DNA of 64,000 nt. Origin: Lachnospiraceae bacterium (lineage in GTDB: Bacteria > Bacillota > Clostridia > Lachnospirales > Lachnospiraceae). Shown piece after piece: positions 9,322 through 17,539 of the stretch. Numbering within the stretch: position 1 is the first letter of the stretch; every line of letters starts with the position of its first letter. The position numbers were made by a program, and so were the translations under genes. Where the stretch lies: the NCBI GenBank assembly GCA_016287095.1, contig JAEEVK010000004.1, positions 1 through 64,000 of the forward strand, given 5' to 3'. Below the pieces are notes generated by a model. That model was not told the DNA's origin, ran no database searches, and worked only from the letters and a program-made list of their open reading frames with translations.

Positions 9322-10197
9322 TCAGAAAACAATATCCTCATACATCTCAGGTCTTCTGTCTCTGAAAATCCCCCATGAAAGTCTGTTTTCCCTGACCTGA
9401 TCCAGATCAAAGGTCTGAACCAGTATCTCTTCTTTGTCCCTTGAAGCACTCTGCACCAGCTCTCCGGTTTCATCAGCTATAAATGACGAACCATAGAAAA
9501 CAAGTGCCGACTTCTGTCCCGCATTTGCCTCACAGGGCTCAACATCCTCACGGCCTATCCTGTTTGCAGCCACTACCGGTACCAGATTTGCTCCTGCATG
9601 TCCCTGCATACATCTTCTCCAGTGAGGCATACTGTCGGTATCAAGTATGGGCTCTGAACCTATGGCTGTGGGATAAAAAATGACTTCTGCACCCTTTAAA
9701 GCAAGCGCCCTTGCAGTCTCCGGGAACCACTGATCCCAGCAGATACCTGCTCCCAGTCTTCCGTATTTAGTATCAAACACCATAAAGCCTGTATTCCCGG
9801 GTGTAAAATAAAATTTCTCCTGGTAAAAATGATCATCCGGGATATGTGTTTTTCTGTATACTCCCAGCAGTTCGCCGTCAGCATCGATCCAAGCAAGGGA
9901 GTTGTATAAAACATTTCCGTCTCTCTCGTAGAAGCTGATAGGAAGCACCACGTCAAGCTCCCTGGCAAGTCTCTTTCCCATCTGAACTGCGGGATTTTCA
10001 TCCACAGGCAGCGCATACTCATAAAAATCGTATCTTTTCTGCTGGCAGAAGTACTCTCTCTCAAAAAGCTCCGGAAGCAGTATGACCTGGGCACCCTTGC
10101 CTGCTGCCTTTCTTACCATCTCCTCAGCCTTTTTAAGATTCTCCTCAACGACCGTACTGCACTGCATCTGTATTGCCGCTACTGTTATATTTCTCAT
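9322..10197 (-). CDS. aguB: N-carbamoylputrescine amidase
   Basis: Nitrilase-fold protein (LLPELFEREYFCQ, GAGICWDQWFPE) adjacent to agmatine deiminase. Confidence 0.9.
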   Translation of the reverse strand: MRNITVAAIQMQCSTVVEENLKKAEEMVRKAAGKGAQVILLPELFEREYFCQQKRYDFYEYALPVDENPAVQMGKRLARELDVVLPISFYERDGNVLYNSLAWIDADGELLGVYRKTHIPDDHFYQEKFYFTPGNTGFMVFDTKYGRLGAGICWDQWFPETARALALKGAEVIFYPTAIGSEPILDTDSMPHWRRCMQGHAGANLVPVVAANRIGREDVEPCEANAGQKSALVFYGSSFIADETGELVQSASRDKEEILVQTFDLDQVRENRLSWGIFRDRRPEMYEDIVF

Positions 10198-10248: not shown

Positions 10249-11370
10249 TTAGGAGCGACCTCGTGGGATCTGCTGTGTGATACAGTGGATATTTCCACCA
10301 CCGAGCAATATATCCCTTGCCGGAATCTGCACAACTTTTCTCCCGGGACAAAGCTTGCTCATTATCTTTGCGGCTGCATCATCGCTTTCGGTATTGTCTC
10401 CGCCAAACGCAGGCAGTATAACCGCTCCGTTAGAAAAATAGAAATTTACATAAGAAGCTGCCAGCCTTTCACCGACCTCCCGCTCATCCTCGCCTTCTTC
10501 AAATTCATAACCCTTAAGATCTTCTTCCTTTATAAAAACATGCTTTTCGGGGATGGGCAGCTTATGAACCTTTATCTTTCGTCCTTTTGCATCCGTTTCA
10601 GCCTCAAGTACATCCAGATCCTCTTTTGAAAGCGCATACTGCGGATCATTTTCATCATCGGTCCATGCCAGTACTACCTCGCCCGGTCTGATAAATGCAC
10701 ATATATTATCCACATGACCGTCGGTCTCGTCATTATATATACCGTTTGGAAGCCAGATAACCTTCTCTGCTCCCAGATATTCTTTTAACCTGTTTTCTAT
10801 CTCTTCCTTATTTAGTAACGGATTTCTTCCGGGACTGAGCAGGCATTCTGAGGTTACCAGTACAGTACCCTCCCCGTCGGAATGGATAGAACCTCCTTCC
10901 AATACAAAAGGCGCCGCATTATATATTGAGTATCCTTCTTTCTCGGCAAAACACGAAGCAAATGCATCATCCTTTTCCCACGATGCATACAGTCCGTTGT
11001 ACTCGCCGCCCCATGCATTAAAGGACCAGTTTATGGCTCTGACCTCTCCGGTATTATCATTTCGCACAAAAGTAGGTGCCACATCCCTCGCCCATGCATC
11101 ATCGGTCTCTGCCCTAAACACATGGACATTATCTATATCTGAAAGGGCCTCCACCGCAGAAGCATAACTTCTCTCTCCTGCTGCCACAAATACTTCTTCG
11201 GACTCCGCTATGGTCTTGATTATCTCCTTAAAAGCTTTTCTTGCCGCCTTTGCCTCATAAGGCCACGAACCCGGACGCTCGGGCCATATCATTATCGTAC
11301 CCCTGTGAGGTTCAAACTCTCCCGGCATAAAGAAACCATCAGCTTTAGGACTGGATTTAATATCTGCCAT
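10249..11370 (-). CDS. aguA: Agmatine deiminase
   Basis: [47 protein letters not shown] motifs; likely start MADIKSS at 11370 (ORF track to 11493). Confidence 0.93.
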
Positions 11371-11458
11371 ATCTCCCATCTCCTCTGATTGTTTTTCCAT
11401 CTTATCATACATTTTTTCTATTGACAATCTTAAAGTCGATTTCTGATTATGTATAACT

Positions 11459-12592
11459 TTAAGATAATCTCCCTTTGAAATCTTCATATCCAAAAGATTT
11501 CACCTTTTTTATGCTTCCGTCTTCCTTTAACAGCAATATATCCGGCAGCGGGATCCCGTTAAATGTATTGTTCTTTACCATGGAATATATGGCCATGTCT
11601 TCAAACACCAGTCTGTCACCGATATTTATCTCTTTCTCAAAGCTGTAATCCCCTATCACATCTCCTGCAAGACATGTAAGTGATGACAGTCTGTAGGTAT
11701 ACGGCTTCTCGTTTGCTTCATAACCATCACGCAGCGGCGGACGATAGGGCATCTCCAGTACATCGGGCATATGGCAGGCTGCTGAAGCATCAAGGATCAG
11801 TATCTCCATACCGTTCTTTACCTTATCCATTACTTCGGTCACAAGATATCCGGCATTCAGAGCTATAGCCTCACCGGGCTCGAGATATACTTCCACATCA
11901 TACTTACTGCGTATATATTTAACAAGCTCCATTAATGCCTCTCTGTCATAATCATCCCTCGTGATATGATGTCCTCCGCCGAGATTCAGCCATTTTACCT
12001 TATACAATATATCTCCGAACTGCTCTTCGATAGCTTTGAAAGTAGTAATTAAGGCATCCGAATTCTGCTCACAGAGAGTATGTGAATGCAGACCTTCTAT
12101 CCCGCCTTCACCAAAATCGGCATCGAACCTGAAATTCTCCTTCGTTACACCGAGCCTTGAACCGAACGCACATGGATCGTAGATCTCATGCCCCTCCTGT
12201 GTCGAGCACATGGGATTGATACGTATACCTGCACTAACATTAGCCATTTTTATGATTTCTCTATATTTTTCATATTGTGCGAAGCTGTTAAAAATAATAT
12301 GGTCGCATATTCTTACCAGCTCTTTCATATGCTCCTCTTTATAAGCAGGTGCATATACATGATTTTCCTTACCCATTTCTTCGTACCCGAGCTTAGCTTC
12401 ATATAAACCGCTCGCCGTGGTCCCGCTGATATACTGTCCGATAAGCGGGTAAAGTGAAAACATTGAAAAGGCCTTCTGAGCAAGCAAGATGTGTGCTCCG
12501 CTCTCAAATTCCACGCTCTTTAATATTTCAAGGTTCTTTTTTATTTTAGCCTCGTCCACTATATAGCAAGGCGTCTGTACATTTTCAAACAT
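11459..12592 (-). CDS. nspC: Carboxynorspermidine/carboxyspermidine decarboxylase
   Basis: PLP fold III decarboxylase ([46 protein letters not shown]); co-located with carboxyspermidine dehydrogenase. Confidence 0.88.
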
Positions 12593-12872: not shown

Positions 12873-13595
12873 ATGGCAAAAAAAGCAGCAGACAATGACA
12901 GGGTAAAAAGACCCATCACGGTGGAGGATCACAAGGAACTAAACAGAAGGAACGAAGCCAAAAATATCAATGCGGTTAATGCAGCACTTGGTTTTCCTAA
13001 TGGAGATGCATTCGAAAATGACCTCACTGAAATTTTGAACAGCGACTGCGAAGAAAAGGGAGAAACCGTCGTTATCGCCCTTATCGACTTCGATAACTTC
13101 CTGCATATCAATGACGATTTCGGAAGGGAAGCAGGAGACAAAGTTCTGATCGATACCGGTCTTTACATTAAGGAAAATGCACCGAAGGATGCTAAAGTAT
13201 ATCGTATAGGCGGCGATGAATTCGGGATCATCTTTAAGGGTTTGACCGAAAGAGAGGACATCTTCTTATTCCTAAACGACCTTAAGAACAACTTTAACGT
13301 CAAGACTCCCGACGGCGCAGCACAGACCCTTACCATAGGTATGGCTACTGCATTTATAGATGCAAACCGCTATGCCGAGCTTGTAAGGAAGGCTGACGGA
13401 GCACTATATCGTGCAAAGGTACAGGGAAGAAACAAGATCCTTATGGCAAGGGAAGAAAAAATGATTCCTAAGACCAGCCACTTTACCCAGGATCAGCTTC
13501 AGCGCCTCGCGAATCTCTCCAAAAGGGAAGGCATAGGTGAAGCGATATTACTTCGGGAAGCATTGGATATGCTCCTAAAAAAATATGATATTTAA
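12873..13595 (+). CDS. GGDEF-domain (putative diguanylate cyclase) protein with C-terminal ribbon-helix-helix-like domain
   Basis: ALIDFDNFLHINDDFGREAGDKVL...YRIGGDEFGIIF (canonical GGDEF); C-terminus SHFTQDQLQRLANLSKREGIGEAILLREALDMLLKKYDI resembles RHH (CopG/Arc-like). Confidence 0.85.
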   Translation: MAKKAADNDRVKRPITVEDHKELNRRNEAKNINAVNAALGFPNGDAFENDLTEILNSDCEEKGETVVIALIDFDNFLHINDDFGREAGDKVLIDTGLYIKENAPKDAKVYRIGGDEFGIIFKGLTEREDIFLFLNDLKNNFNVKTPDGAAQTLTIGMATAFIDANRYAELVRKADGALYRAKVQGRNKILMAREEKMIPKTSHFTQDQLQRLANLSKREGIGEAILLREALDMLLKKYDI

Positions 13596-13660: not shown

Positions 13661-14920
13661 TTAGTCAACCAGTACCGGATCCTCATCAACCTTCCAGGGG
13701 AGACCGAACTCATTTAACATATCCATAAACGGATCGGGATCAAATTCTTCTACTGTAAATACACCGTCCCTGTCCCACTTCTTTGAGATTACAAGTGCGG
13801 TACCGATCATAGCCGGAACACCGGTGGTATAGGAGATCGCCTGTGAACCTACCTCTTTGTAGCACTCCTGATGGTCACATACATTATAAATATATACCTT
13901 CTTCTCTTTTCCGTCCTTGCGTCCGGTAAAGATACAGCCAATGTTGGTCTTTCCTACAGTCCTGGGTCCCAATGATGCGGGATCAGGCAGCAGAGCCTTT
14001 AAAAACTGAATGGGAACTATCTCCTTACCCTCAAAATTAATGGGTGAGGTAGACAGCATTCCGACATTCTCCAGACACTTCATGTGAGTCAGATAGCTCT
14101 GTCCGAATGTCATAAAGAAACGGATCCTCTTTACACCGGGGATGTTTTTAGCCAGGGACTCTATCTCCTCATGATGCAGAAGGTACATATCCTTCATGCC
14201 TACGCCCTCAAAGTTGTACTCCCTCTTTATCTCCATGGGCTTGGTCTCTACCCAGTGACCGTTCTCCCAGTATGAGCCGTTAGCCGATACCTCGCGGAGA
14301 TTGATCTCCGGATTAAAGTTTGTAGCAAAAGGATATCCGTGATCACCGCCGTTGCAGTCCAGGATATCAATAGTATCTATCTCATCAAAATAATGCTTCA
14401 GAGCATAAGCTGAAAATACACTTGTTACACCGGGATCAAAACCGCTGCCGAGAAGTCCTGTGATACCTGCAGCCTTGAATCTGTCCTGATATGCCCACTG
14501 CCATGAATAATCAAAGTATGCGGTAAAGCCTTTCTCTTTGCATCTCTTCTCATATATTGCACGCCACTCGGGATCATCCGTATCCTCGGGCTCATAGTTT
14601 GCGGTATCAATATAATCCACCTTGCACTCCAGGCATGCATCCATAATGGTCAGATCCTGGTAGGGAAGAGCAACATTAAGTACTGCATCAGGCTTATACT
14701 CATTGATAAGAGCTACCAGTTCATCCTTAGAATCCGCATTTACCTTTGCGGTAGTGATAACGGTATCTGTCTTGGGCTCAAGCTTTTCCTTTAAGGCATC
14801 ACATTTAGACTTTGTACGGCTTGCAATACAAAGCTCTGTAAACACCTTACTGTTCTGACAACATTTTGAGATGGCAACCTGTGCCACACCGCCGCAACCA
14901 ATAACCAATAATCTGCTCAT
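13661..14920 (-). CDS. Carboxynorspermidine/carboxyspermidine dehydrogenase (saccharopine dehydrogenase family)
   Basis: MSRLLVIGCGGVAQVAISKCCQN, LLGSGFDPGVTSVFSAYALKHYFDEI, NCGGDHGYPFATNFNPEINLREV-type motifs; cluster context. Confidence 0.9.
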   Translation of the reverse strand: MSRLLVIGCGGVAQVAISKCCQNSKVFTELCIASRTKSKCDALKEKLEPKTDTVITTAKVNADSKDELVALINEYKPDAVLNVALPYQDLTIMDACLECKVDYIDTANYEPEDTDDPEWRAIYEKRCKEKGFTAYFDYSWQWAYQDRFKAAGITGLLGSGFDPGVTSVFSAYALKHYFDEIDTIDILDCNGGDHGYPFATNFNPEINLREVSANGSYWENGHWVETKPMEIKREYNFEGVGMKDMYLLHHEEIESLAKNIPGVKRIRFFMTFGQSYLTHMKCLENVGMLSTSPINFEGKEIVPIQFLKALLPDPASLGPRTVGKTNIGCIFTGRKDGKEKKVYIYNVCDHQECYKEVGSQAISYTTGVPAMIGTALVISKKWDRDGVFTVEEFDPDPFMDMLNEFGLPWKVDEDPVLVD

Positions 14921-14935
14921 CTTATTTACCCCTCC

Positions 14936-15790
14936 TTAATCTTCTTCTTCCTCTAACATATCTTCAACATATTTCGGCAGCATGAACGCTCCCTGATGAA
15001 GGTTTGTTGTATAATACCAGGTCTTTATCTTCCTGTCATTCCATCTCTTTGCATCCAGGTCGGTCAACGGATGATACTTCTTTGACACGAAACCGAAAAG
15101 CCAATATCCCGAAGCACAAGTCGGAATATGCGCCTGATAAACACGGCTTATAGGGAAGCTGTGGCTTGCCTTCCTGTGCATAGCCCTGCAGGTATCCTCA
15201 TCCTCATCATAGAAAGGACTGCCGTGCTGGTATACCATGATACCGTCATCTCTTAAAGCCCTGAAGCAGTTTCCGTAAAACTCTTTTGTAAAAAGTCCCG
15301 CGGTATGTCCTAACGGATCAATGGCATCATTTATTATAAGATCATATACTCCAAGCTTATCTCTCAAAAATCTTAAGCCGTCCCTGTTATAAACCTTAAC
15401 TCTCGGGTCCTCAAGACCTCTGGCATTATCCGGGAAAAACTCCTTACACACAGAGATAAACACATCATCGGGCTCTACAACATCTATCTGTTTTATTTCA
15501 TCATAATATGAAAGCTCTCTGGCTACTCCGCCGTCACCTCCACCGATGACAAGTACCTTTTCAACATTCGGATGAACAGCCATCGGGACATGAACTATCA
15601 TCTCATCATAAGTGAACTCGTCCTTTTCAGAAAAAACGATGCTTCCGTCCGAGCTTATAAATCTGCCGAACTCCTCGGATTCAAATACATCCAGCCTCTG
15701 AAAATCAGTCTGTTCACCAAATAAATGCTTTTCAATTTTAACCGACAGTTTTACTTTATCGGTATGGAATTCAGAAAACCAGAGCTCCAT
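14936..15790 (-). CDS. speE: Spermidine synthase-like aminopropyltransferase
   Basis: VLVIGGGDGGVARELSYY, LIINDAIDPLGHTAGLFTKEFYGNCFRAL. Confidence 0.85.
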   Translation of the reverse strand: MELWFSEFHTDKVKLSVKIEKHLFGEQTDFQRLDVFESEEFGRFISSDGSIVFSEKDEFTYDEMIVHVPMAVHPNVEKVLVIGGGDGGVARELSYYDEIKQIDVVEPDDVFISVCKEFFPDNARGLEDPRVKVYNRDGLRFLRDKLGVYDLIINDAIDPLGHTAGLFTKEFYGNCFRALRDDGIMVYQHGSPFYDEDEDTCRAMHRKASHSFPISRVYQAHIPTCASGYWLFGFVSKKYHPLTDLDAKRWNDRKIKTWYYTTNLHQGAFMLPKYVEDMLEEEED

Positions 15791-15800
15791 TTATCTTACC

Positions 15801-17252
15801 TCATTTCTCAAGTACCTGCAGATACTCCATGTACGGATCCTGGGTACCCTGCATGGAGCAGCCCTTCTCCTTAGCGTACATGATGTATTCTATAATATCG
15901 TCAGTTATCAGCTCGCCGGGAGCCAGTATCGGTATTCCGGGGGGATAACACATAACAAATTCACTGCATATCCTGCCTGCAGTCTCCGCTATCGGAAGTG
16001 CAGTCTTATCTGAATAAAATGCCTTTTGAGGTGAAACGCAAACCTTCGGTGCAATATATTCTGCTGCCATAAGGGATGCCGGATCCTTGGAGTAGAGTCT
16101 CTTTATATCCGCCAGTGCTCCAACCAGACGCTCTATATCCTGTATCCTGTCACCTATGGAAATATATGCGAGGATATTTGCTATATCACCAAACTCTATC
16201 TGGATATCATACTCATCTCTCAAAAGGTCATAAACCTCAATACCGGCAAGTCCGATATCCCTCGTATATACGGAAAGCTTGGTTACATCAAAATCATAAA
16301 TACTCTTTCCGTTTACTATCTCTGCTCCATATGCGTAATAACCGCCGATGGAATTGATCTCTGCACGTGCATACTCGGCCATTTCCTTAACCTTACTGAA
16401 GGACTCCGCTCCGCGAAGTGCCAGATTTCTTCTTGAAATATCAAGACTTGAAAGGAGCAGATACGAAGCACTTGTTGTCTGGGTAAGATTGATGATCTGA
16501 GCCACATATTCCCAGTTTACTGTCTTATTTACCAAAAGCAGCGAACTCTGTGTCAAGCTTCCGCCCGACTTATGCATCGATACCGAAGCCATATCTGCAC
16601 CGGCTTCCATCGCAGAAACCGGCAGGCTCTTTTCAAAATAAAGATGTGTTCCGTGAGCCTCATCAACCAGACAGAGCATCTTATTGTCATGAGCCAGCTT
16701 AACTATTCCTCTTAAGTCAGAACATATGCCATAGTAAGTAGGATTATTTACAAAAACACAAACCGCATCGGGATTTTCCTTTATCGCCTTTTCAAGTTCC
16801 TCGAGTTCCATCCCTAAAGCTATACCCAGCTTTTTGTCTACCTCTGGATTAACATATACCGGTACCGCACCGCAGAGCACCAGAGCATTTATTACACTCT
16901 TATGCACATTTCTCGGAAGGATGATCTTGTCTCCCGCACGGCAGGCTGTCAGTACCATCGCCTGGACCGCAGATGTGGTTCCGCCTACCATAAAGAAGGA
17001 ATGGTCAGCACCGAATGCCTCTGCTGCCAGCTCCTCAGCCTCCTTTATAACGGACATGGGATGGCAGAGATTATCCAGGGGCTTCATGGAGTTTACATCC
17101 AGGTTTACGCACTTCTCTCCTAAAAGCTCCTTAAGCTCGGGGTTTCCTCTTCCGCGCTTATGTCCCGGAACATCAAAGGGAACTATTCTCTGTTTTCTAA
17201 ACTTCTCCAGTGCCTCATACACCGGAGCATGCTTTTGTGCTTCTATATTCAT
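15801..17252 (-). CDS. speA: Orn/Lys/Arg decarboxylase, probable arginine decarboxylase
   Basis: PLP fold I: VPGHKRGRGNPELKE, CLVDEAHGTHLYF, ADMASVSMHKSGGSLTQSSLLLV; co-located with aguA/aguB. Confidence 0.85.
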   Translation of the reverse strand: MNIEAQKHAPVYEALEKFRKQRIVPFDVPGHKRGRGNPELKELLGEKCVNLDVNSMKPLDNLCHPMSVIKEAEELAAEAFGADHSFFMVGGTTSAVQAMVLTACRAGDKIILPRNVHKSVINALVLCGAVPVYVNPEVDKKLGIALGMELEELEKAIKENPDAVCVFVNNPTYYGICSDLRGIVKLAHDNKMLCLVDEAHGTHLYFEKSLPVSAMEAGADMASVSMHKSGGSLTQSSLLLVNKTVNWEYVAQIINLTQTTSASYLLLSSLDISRRNLALRGAESFSKVKEMAEYARAEINSIGGYYAYGAEIVNGKSIYDFDVTKLSVYTRDIGLAGIEVYDLLRDEYDIQIEFGDIANILAYISIGDRIQDIERLVGALADIKRLYSKDPASLMAAEYIAPKVCVSPQKAFYSDKTALPIAETAGRICSEFVMCYPPGIPILAPGELITDDIIEYIMYAKEKGCSMQGTQDPYMEYLQVLEK

Positions 17253-17290: not shown

Positions 17291-17318
17291 AAAAAAGGAC
17301 AGATGATAACATCTGTCC
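17291..17318 (-). terminator. Intrinsic terminator upstream of speA
   Basis: Minus strand GGACAGATG-TTAT-CATCTGTCC-TTTTTT. Confidence 0.8.
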
Positions 17319-17505
17319 TGAAATCCTATCTTACGATAAACTACCACAGCGCCAAAGGATAACCTAAAGCTGCACGTATTGACCTATTCAGAAGCGATGT
17401 TACCTAATGTGGCCTTTCGCCACCCGCGGCAGTCGCCCCGCCTGTCCGTATGGGCTTAACCAAAATGGTGGGCAATGTGCATGAATAGTTTGGTAATTCA
17501 TGTGG
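17297..17505 (-). ncRNA. Structured leader RNA / riboswitch-like or stand-alone ncRNA, class unassigned
   Basis: Own promoter and terminator with stable hairpins between (GUGGC-GAAAG-GCCAC; CAGC..AGG-UUAU-CCU..GCUG); no good ORF. Confidence 0.6.
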
Positions 17506-17510
17506 AAAAT

Positions 17511-17539
17511 AATATATCATAGTAGTAACAAAAATGCAA
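17511..17539 (-). promoter_or_regulatory. Promoter of the speA leader RNA
   Basis: Minus strand TTGCAT (17539-17534)-17 bp-TATATT (17516-17511). Confidence 0.65.

Follow-up and report, generated by a model that had tools for sequence, protein, structure and literature searches.

A polyamine-gene leader RNA of the SpF59/ldcC class in Bacillota and its probable role as a polyamine-responsive transcription attenuator

The window analysed here, a stretch of 64,000 nucleotides, holds a structured leader in front of the speA operon, and the question it raises is what kind of RNA this is and to what it responds. The initial annotation had described a leader of about 200 nt with its own promoter and terminator, had assigned it to no known class, and had proposed either a polyamine- or arginine-responsive attenuator or a stand-alone noncoding RNA. 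The reading we favour, at a probability of about 0.74 and from comparative sequence analysis, is that it attenuates transcription in cis, belongs to the SpF59/ldcC class and is most likely an OFF-type riboswitch for a polyamine, probably spermidine. The two parts of this reading differ in strength: we are highly confident that the RNA genuinely is a conserved attenuator that regulates polyamine genes in cis, and we consider direct sensing of a polyamine probable.

The speA leader and its match in Rfam

The architecture proposed for the leader was borne out (Table 1). Direct reading gave the two promoter boxes with their 17-nt spacer; both are kept, around a variable spacer, in nine to ten same-genus relatives, which also share the core and the terminator. 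A promoter scanner missed this promoter because only 8 of 12 positions match the consensus. The leader region folded better than all of 200 dinucleotide shuffles (z = −3.48), and a terminator scan placed a strong terminator at 17319-17296, followed by a U run, about 40 nt upstream of speA (ATG at 17252). The host genome contains one copy of the leader. Segment CUAUUCA of the 5' hairpin has an alternative partner, UGAAUAG at 17390-17384. In the window's genus, RNAalifold suggested pairing of AUUGCC with GGUCAAU and of GGGCGA with UCGCUU, and the alignments predict AUUGCC at 17476-17471 as the partner of GGUCAAUAC.

Table 1. Features of the leader and of the downstream polyamine genes in the window
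Feature	Position	Strand	Basis
-35 box TTGCAT	17539-17534	minus	direct reading; kept in same-genus relatives
-10 box TATATT, spacer 17 nt	17516-17511	minus	direct reading; TATATT/TATAGT in relatives
5' hairpin CAUGAAU...AUUCAUG	17480..17502	minus	RNAalifold on nine same-genus sequences; single-sequence MFE
Conserved core, RF02440 match: P2, P3, P4, loop AUACGGACA	17426..17474	minus	53.9 bits; model R1 48 bits
Hairpin P5 GUGGC/GCCAC	17409..17423	minus	R1 alignment; RNAalifold; class-wide helix covariation
Site without helices P6-P10 (compared with canonical homologs)	17397..17407	minus	R1 alignment; alignment with L049, L015
Antiterminator 5' strand UAACAUC-GC-UUCUG, counterpart of class-wide (AUC)ACUUGUG	17389..17402	minus	same-genus conservation; class-wide swap test
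GGUCAAUAC, counterpart of P6 3' strand	17376..17384	minus	alignments
Antiterminator 3' strand CAGGA-CA-GAUGUUA (terminator 5' arm and loop)	17307..17320	minus	kept in same-genus copies
Intrinsic terminator AGGACAGAUG-UUAU-CAUCUGUCCU with U run	17291..17319	minus	terminator scan
speA, Orn/Lys/Arg decarboxylase (aspartate aminotransferase fold)	15801..17252	minus	Pfam OKR_DC_1, E 8.5e-71
speE, polyamine aminopropyltransferase	14936..15790	minus	NCBIfam PRK00811 and speE, above cut-offs
lys9 / carboxynorspermidine synthase (CASDH)-like	13661..14920	minus	NCBIfam carsnrspmd_synth, E 4.6e-123, below curated cut-off
nspC, carboxynorspermidine decarboxylase	11459..12592	minus	TIGR01047, above cut-off
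aguA, agmatine deiminase	10249..11493	minus	TIGR03380, above cut-off
aguB, N-carbamoylputrescine amidase	9322..10197	minus	TIGR03381, above cut-off

A covariance-model search of the whole window against Rfam overturned the verdict of no known class: RF02440 (SpF59_sRNA, also called ldcC RNA) matches the core with a score well over its gathering threshold of 37.2, and it is the only Rfam family with a match in the 64 kb. The initial annotation had seen no lysine, cobalamin, SAM or guanidine riboswitch signatures, and the search likewise gave no match to these, to the T-box or to any other Rfam riboswitch. RF02440 itself models only 54 nt, is typed as an sRNA gene and is named for Streptococcus, whereas the class described below has a domain of about 166 nt, a likely outer helix, a terminator/antiterminator and a wide range in Bacillota. 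The label "ldcC RNA" hints that someone had already noticed the link to such genes. Our literature search, which covered open-licence papers, found no description of a full-length SpF59 RNA and no claim that SpF59 is a riboswitch.

The full-length RNA class and the genes it precedes

Searches with RF02440 were positive in 36 of 200 genomes of the family, 35 of 291 of the class and 18 of 399 of the phylum, and scanning named genomes for a DNA pattern added further homologs. About 210 loci were looked at in total. These homologs share a much longer RNA than the Rfam model covers. RNAalifold on the raw MAFFT alignment of whole leaders produced a poor structure, and a structure-guided model, R1, was substituted. 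It was built from 25 sequences and comprises 166 positions and eight helices (P2-P9); helix P10 was misaligned and is excluded.

R1 recovered all 98 loci outside its building set, among them L111 and a few others closely related to model members. In these 98 loci, standard pairs fill 96.8% of the pair cells, and the covariation that the initial annotation had proposed to look for upstream of speA genes is present, with compensatory (two-sided) changes in 25 of 39 pairs. The covariation score was 0.275, whereas shuffles gave 0.113 ± 0.004 and slid structures no more than 0.079. Fitting the alignment to R1 biases the score towards the structure, yet it exceeds both controls by a wide margin. Helix P4, for example, flips from GGC/GCC to GCC/GGC among homologs. 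The core is nearly invariant, which places parts of it (e.g. CGG with GCCG) beyond covariation testing. An outer helix, P1, is likely also present in the class (z = −9.0, 0 of 10,000, with 51 representatives), although the signal was not significant with only five very divergent representatives (z = −2.0). On this comparative evidence, the RNA has the structured, aptamer-like, covarying domain that is expected of a riboswitch.

The class ranges over Lachnospiraceae, Paenibacillus, Bacillus, Negativicutes and Lactococcus, and also occurs in Faecalibacterium and Blautia. Two copies (L108 and L139) lie on contigs labelled Spirochaetes and Synergistaceae, which are metagenome bins, and may reflect transfer or binning error. 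The exact core pattern was absent from viral contigs.

The genes that follow the RNA are strikingly uniform. With genes called by their resemblance to proteins of the window and to a speD and a potA reference confirmed by NCBIfam, we found the first identified downstream gene to be speA at 80 loci, speD at 51, potA at 32, lys9/CASDH at 20 and speE at 1, in a set that includes a few duplicate places. Ten loci have no assigned first gene, and nine of these end no more than about 600 bases past the core. Thus, nearly all loci with enough downstream sequence have a gene of polyamine synthesis or import first, and the low-scoring copies found later follow the same rule. A relative in the window's genus carries the RNA twice, upstream of speA and again upstream of speE-lys9. 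The products of the window operon, SpeA, SpeE, CASDH, NspC, AguA and AguB, make up a route from arginine via agmatine and putrescine to spermidine.

A few loci depart from the common arrangement. L013:1373-1558 (minus strand), the tenth of the unassigned loci, stands alone in clearly preceding a gene unrelated to polyamines, one for an M28 peptidase, and its core is unusual too (GGCTACACGGACGGCC). At L123:1557-1892 (minus), a PII-like nitrogen regulator gene comes next, followed by potA. In the window, a GGDEF gene with a C-terminal ribbon-helix-helix domain (12873-13595, plus strand) splits the cluster between CASDH and nspC.

Taken at face value, the name in Rfam, "Streptococcus sRNA SpF59", points to a trans-acting sRNA whose adjoining gene is incidental. 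In S. pneumoniae, the F59 transcript was detected between SP0915 and SP0916 (PMC3395615); it is the same as srn235/SN20, is listed with a lung phenotype (PMC3395615, PMC4387999), and is also named srn235/Spd_sr49 (PMC12323649). However, SP0916 is the arginine decarboxylase gene speA (PMC7531197), which puts the RNA in cis in S. pneumoniae, upstream of the same gene as in the window. Elsewhere, the near-exclusive polyamine context, the shared orientation and the conserved antiterminator described below speak against an independent RNA, and a prematurely terminated leader would itself resemble an sRNA. We consider the trans-acting reading very improbable, and the gene association likewise makes a purely stand-alone noncoding RNA, the other option of the initial annotation, unlikely.

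The terminator/antiterminator switch and its short form

Intrinsic terminators lie downstream of the RNA at 133 of 176 loci. About a quarter of loci lack one by the scan, and some of these may use another expression platform. At L059:926-1083 (plus), the RNA abuts speD, with a candidate speD start codon (TTATGGACTC) at the conserved RNA end, which suggests translational control of speD.

The terminator 5' arm is complementary to a conserved core segment ending in ACUUGUG. Across 113 loci, the native pairing averaged −14.0 kcal/mol compared with −10.6 for arms swapped between loci (z = −14.9, 0 of 10,000), and shuffled terminator arms had a mean pairing of −6.4 kcal/mol. The signal persisted when the set was dereplicated: with 71, 28 and 14 representatives, z was −12.4, −8.1 and −5.9, respectively, with 0 of 20,000 permutations in each case, and a neighbouring control segment had no signal in the swap test (z = −1.4). 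A different pairing had been suggested initially, between CUGUCC in the terminator 3' arm and GGACAG upstream. Both segments exist, but their native pairing hardly differs from the swapped one (−6.5 and −6.3 kcal/mol, z = −2.6), and there is no k-mer enrichment downstream of the core, so that this particular pairing is not supported as a feature of the class.

The segment ending in ACUUGUG also supplies the 3' strand of P8 and part of that of P10; therefore, the antiterminator and the folded core are mutually exclusive. By computation, the RNA has the kind of expression platform with exclusive structures that is characteristic of riboswitches, and stabilisation of the core by a ligand would make it an OFF switch. 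At low polyamine levels, the core segment would pair with the terminator 5' arm, blocking the terminator and allowing transcription of the operon. With ample polyamine, the ligand would stabilise the core and free the 5' arm, the terminator would form, and transcription would stop before speA.

A terminator/antiterminator layout alone is silent on the trigger, which could also be an RNA-binding protein or a ribosome. A leader peptide was considered: translated, the core in the window gives MNYQTIHAHCPPFWLSPYGQAGRLPRVAKGHIR, and homologs share the motif PYGQxG. We rejected it, as there is no start codon and no conserved reading frame; in most of 57 homologs, the core frame is startless and closed just upstream, and in the window it is open only by chance. 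The large invariant core and its presence in groups from Lachnospiraceae to Lactococcus are also better suited to an aptamer. A protein or ribosome trigger is thus quite unlikely, and we retain a small molecule as the probable signal.

The window copy is a short variant of the class. R1 aligns it to P2-P5, with 85 model positions (P6-P10, about 75 nt) missing, while the core and the antiterminator/terminator pair are retained. These missing positions raise the prospect of a decayed remnant that no longer switches. Against this, some ten copies within the genus share the short form and have conserved the promoter, the core, the terminator and both strands of the antiterminator. The GGUAACAUCGCUUCUGAAUAGGUCAAUACG block is nearly invariant in these copies, as is CAGGACAGAUGUU in the terminator, and the invariant terminator bases include loop positions that are superfluous for the terminator itself. 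The two antiterminator strands (17402-17389 and 17320-17307) are conserved in the genus rather than covarying. A partly shortened form also exists in another Lachnospiraceae genus, where L217:891-987 (minus), located before speA, has kept P6 and lost P7-P10 and can be regarded as an intermediate. We therefore regard decay as unlikely, and we take the window leader to be a shortened switch, though the loss of a whole domain could mean that its ligand has changed or that sensing has been lost. When the RNA was ended before the terminator 3' arm, the computed difference between antiterminator and alternative folds ranged from −3.6 to +4.4 kcal/mol; such near-equal energies of two states are the balance expected of a switch and are not proof of one.

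The candidate ligand and known polyamine RNAs

Our best guess for the ligand is spermidine, because end-product feedback by spermidine would explain all of the neighbouring genes: synthesis, the aminopropyl donor, the carboxyspermidine route and import. The same design might instead respond to arginine, agmatine, putrescine, cadaverine, decarboxylated SAM or MTA. The preponderance of speA among the neighbours and a window operon that begins with arginine are consistent with this. However, the RNA also directly precedes speD, lys9/CASDH and the spermidine/putrescine import gene potA, and a sensor of arginine, agmatine or decarboxylated SAM would leave some of them unexplained; arginine, agmatine and putrescine are less favoured because each would account for only some of the neighbours. 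Another ligand is therefore unlikely. The polyamine/arginine attenuator proposed in the initial annotation is strongly supported by comparison in its polyamine part, while arginine is a possible ligand but a poorer match than spermidine to the genes concerned.

Extending this to the class, we lean towards the view that SpF59/ldcC is a widespread spermidine riboswitch class that governs polyamine synthesis and import in many Bacillota, and that the natural minimal form in the window's genus would mean that P2-P5 are enough to sense and P6-P10 are accessory. The RNA is broadly distributed in Bacillota and, per the literature, present in S. pneumoniae, but its database entry treats it as a fragment of a small RNA. 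Direct sensing of polyamines, if real, would account for feedback control over how many bacteria of the gut and mouth make and take up these compounds, and the natural minimal variant would be ready for structural work.

Other RNA motifs likewise lie upstream of polyamine genes: odc1 and potE (Brewer et al. 2021, PMC8632094) and speF (reviewed in PMC11477304). None of the three is named for speA, speD, potA or lys9, and odc1 includes a uORF. The comparison of SpF59 with odc1 and potE was made at the level of gene context and of the Rfam search, in which no family other than RF02440 matched.

The only validated spermidine riboswitch class that we found in the open-licence literature is the variant derived from SAM-I (Salvail et al. 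2023, PMC10853860), which its authors consider narrowly distributed, with more classes expected. It is also an OFF switch, as we infer for SpF59, and acts by termination before polyamine genes, ldcC, speE, speB and speD among them. We considered membership in this class, which has a SAM-I-like four-stem aptamer, and rejected it: neither the window leader nor one canonical homolog matched SAM-I or any other Rfam riboswitch at E values up to 10. SpF59 appears structurally unrelated to this riboswitch, with a different conserved core, many more helices and a far wider occurrence.
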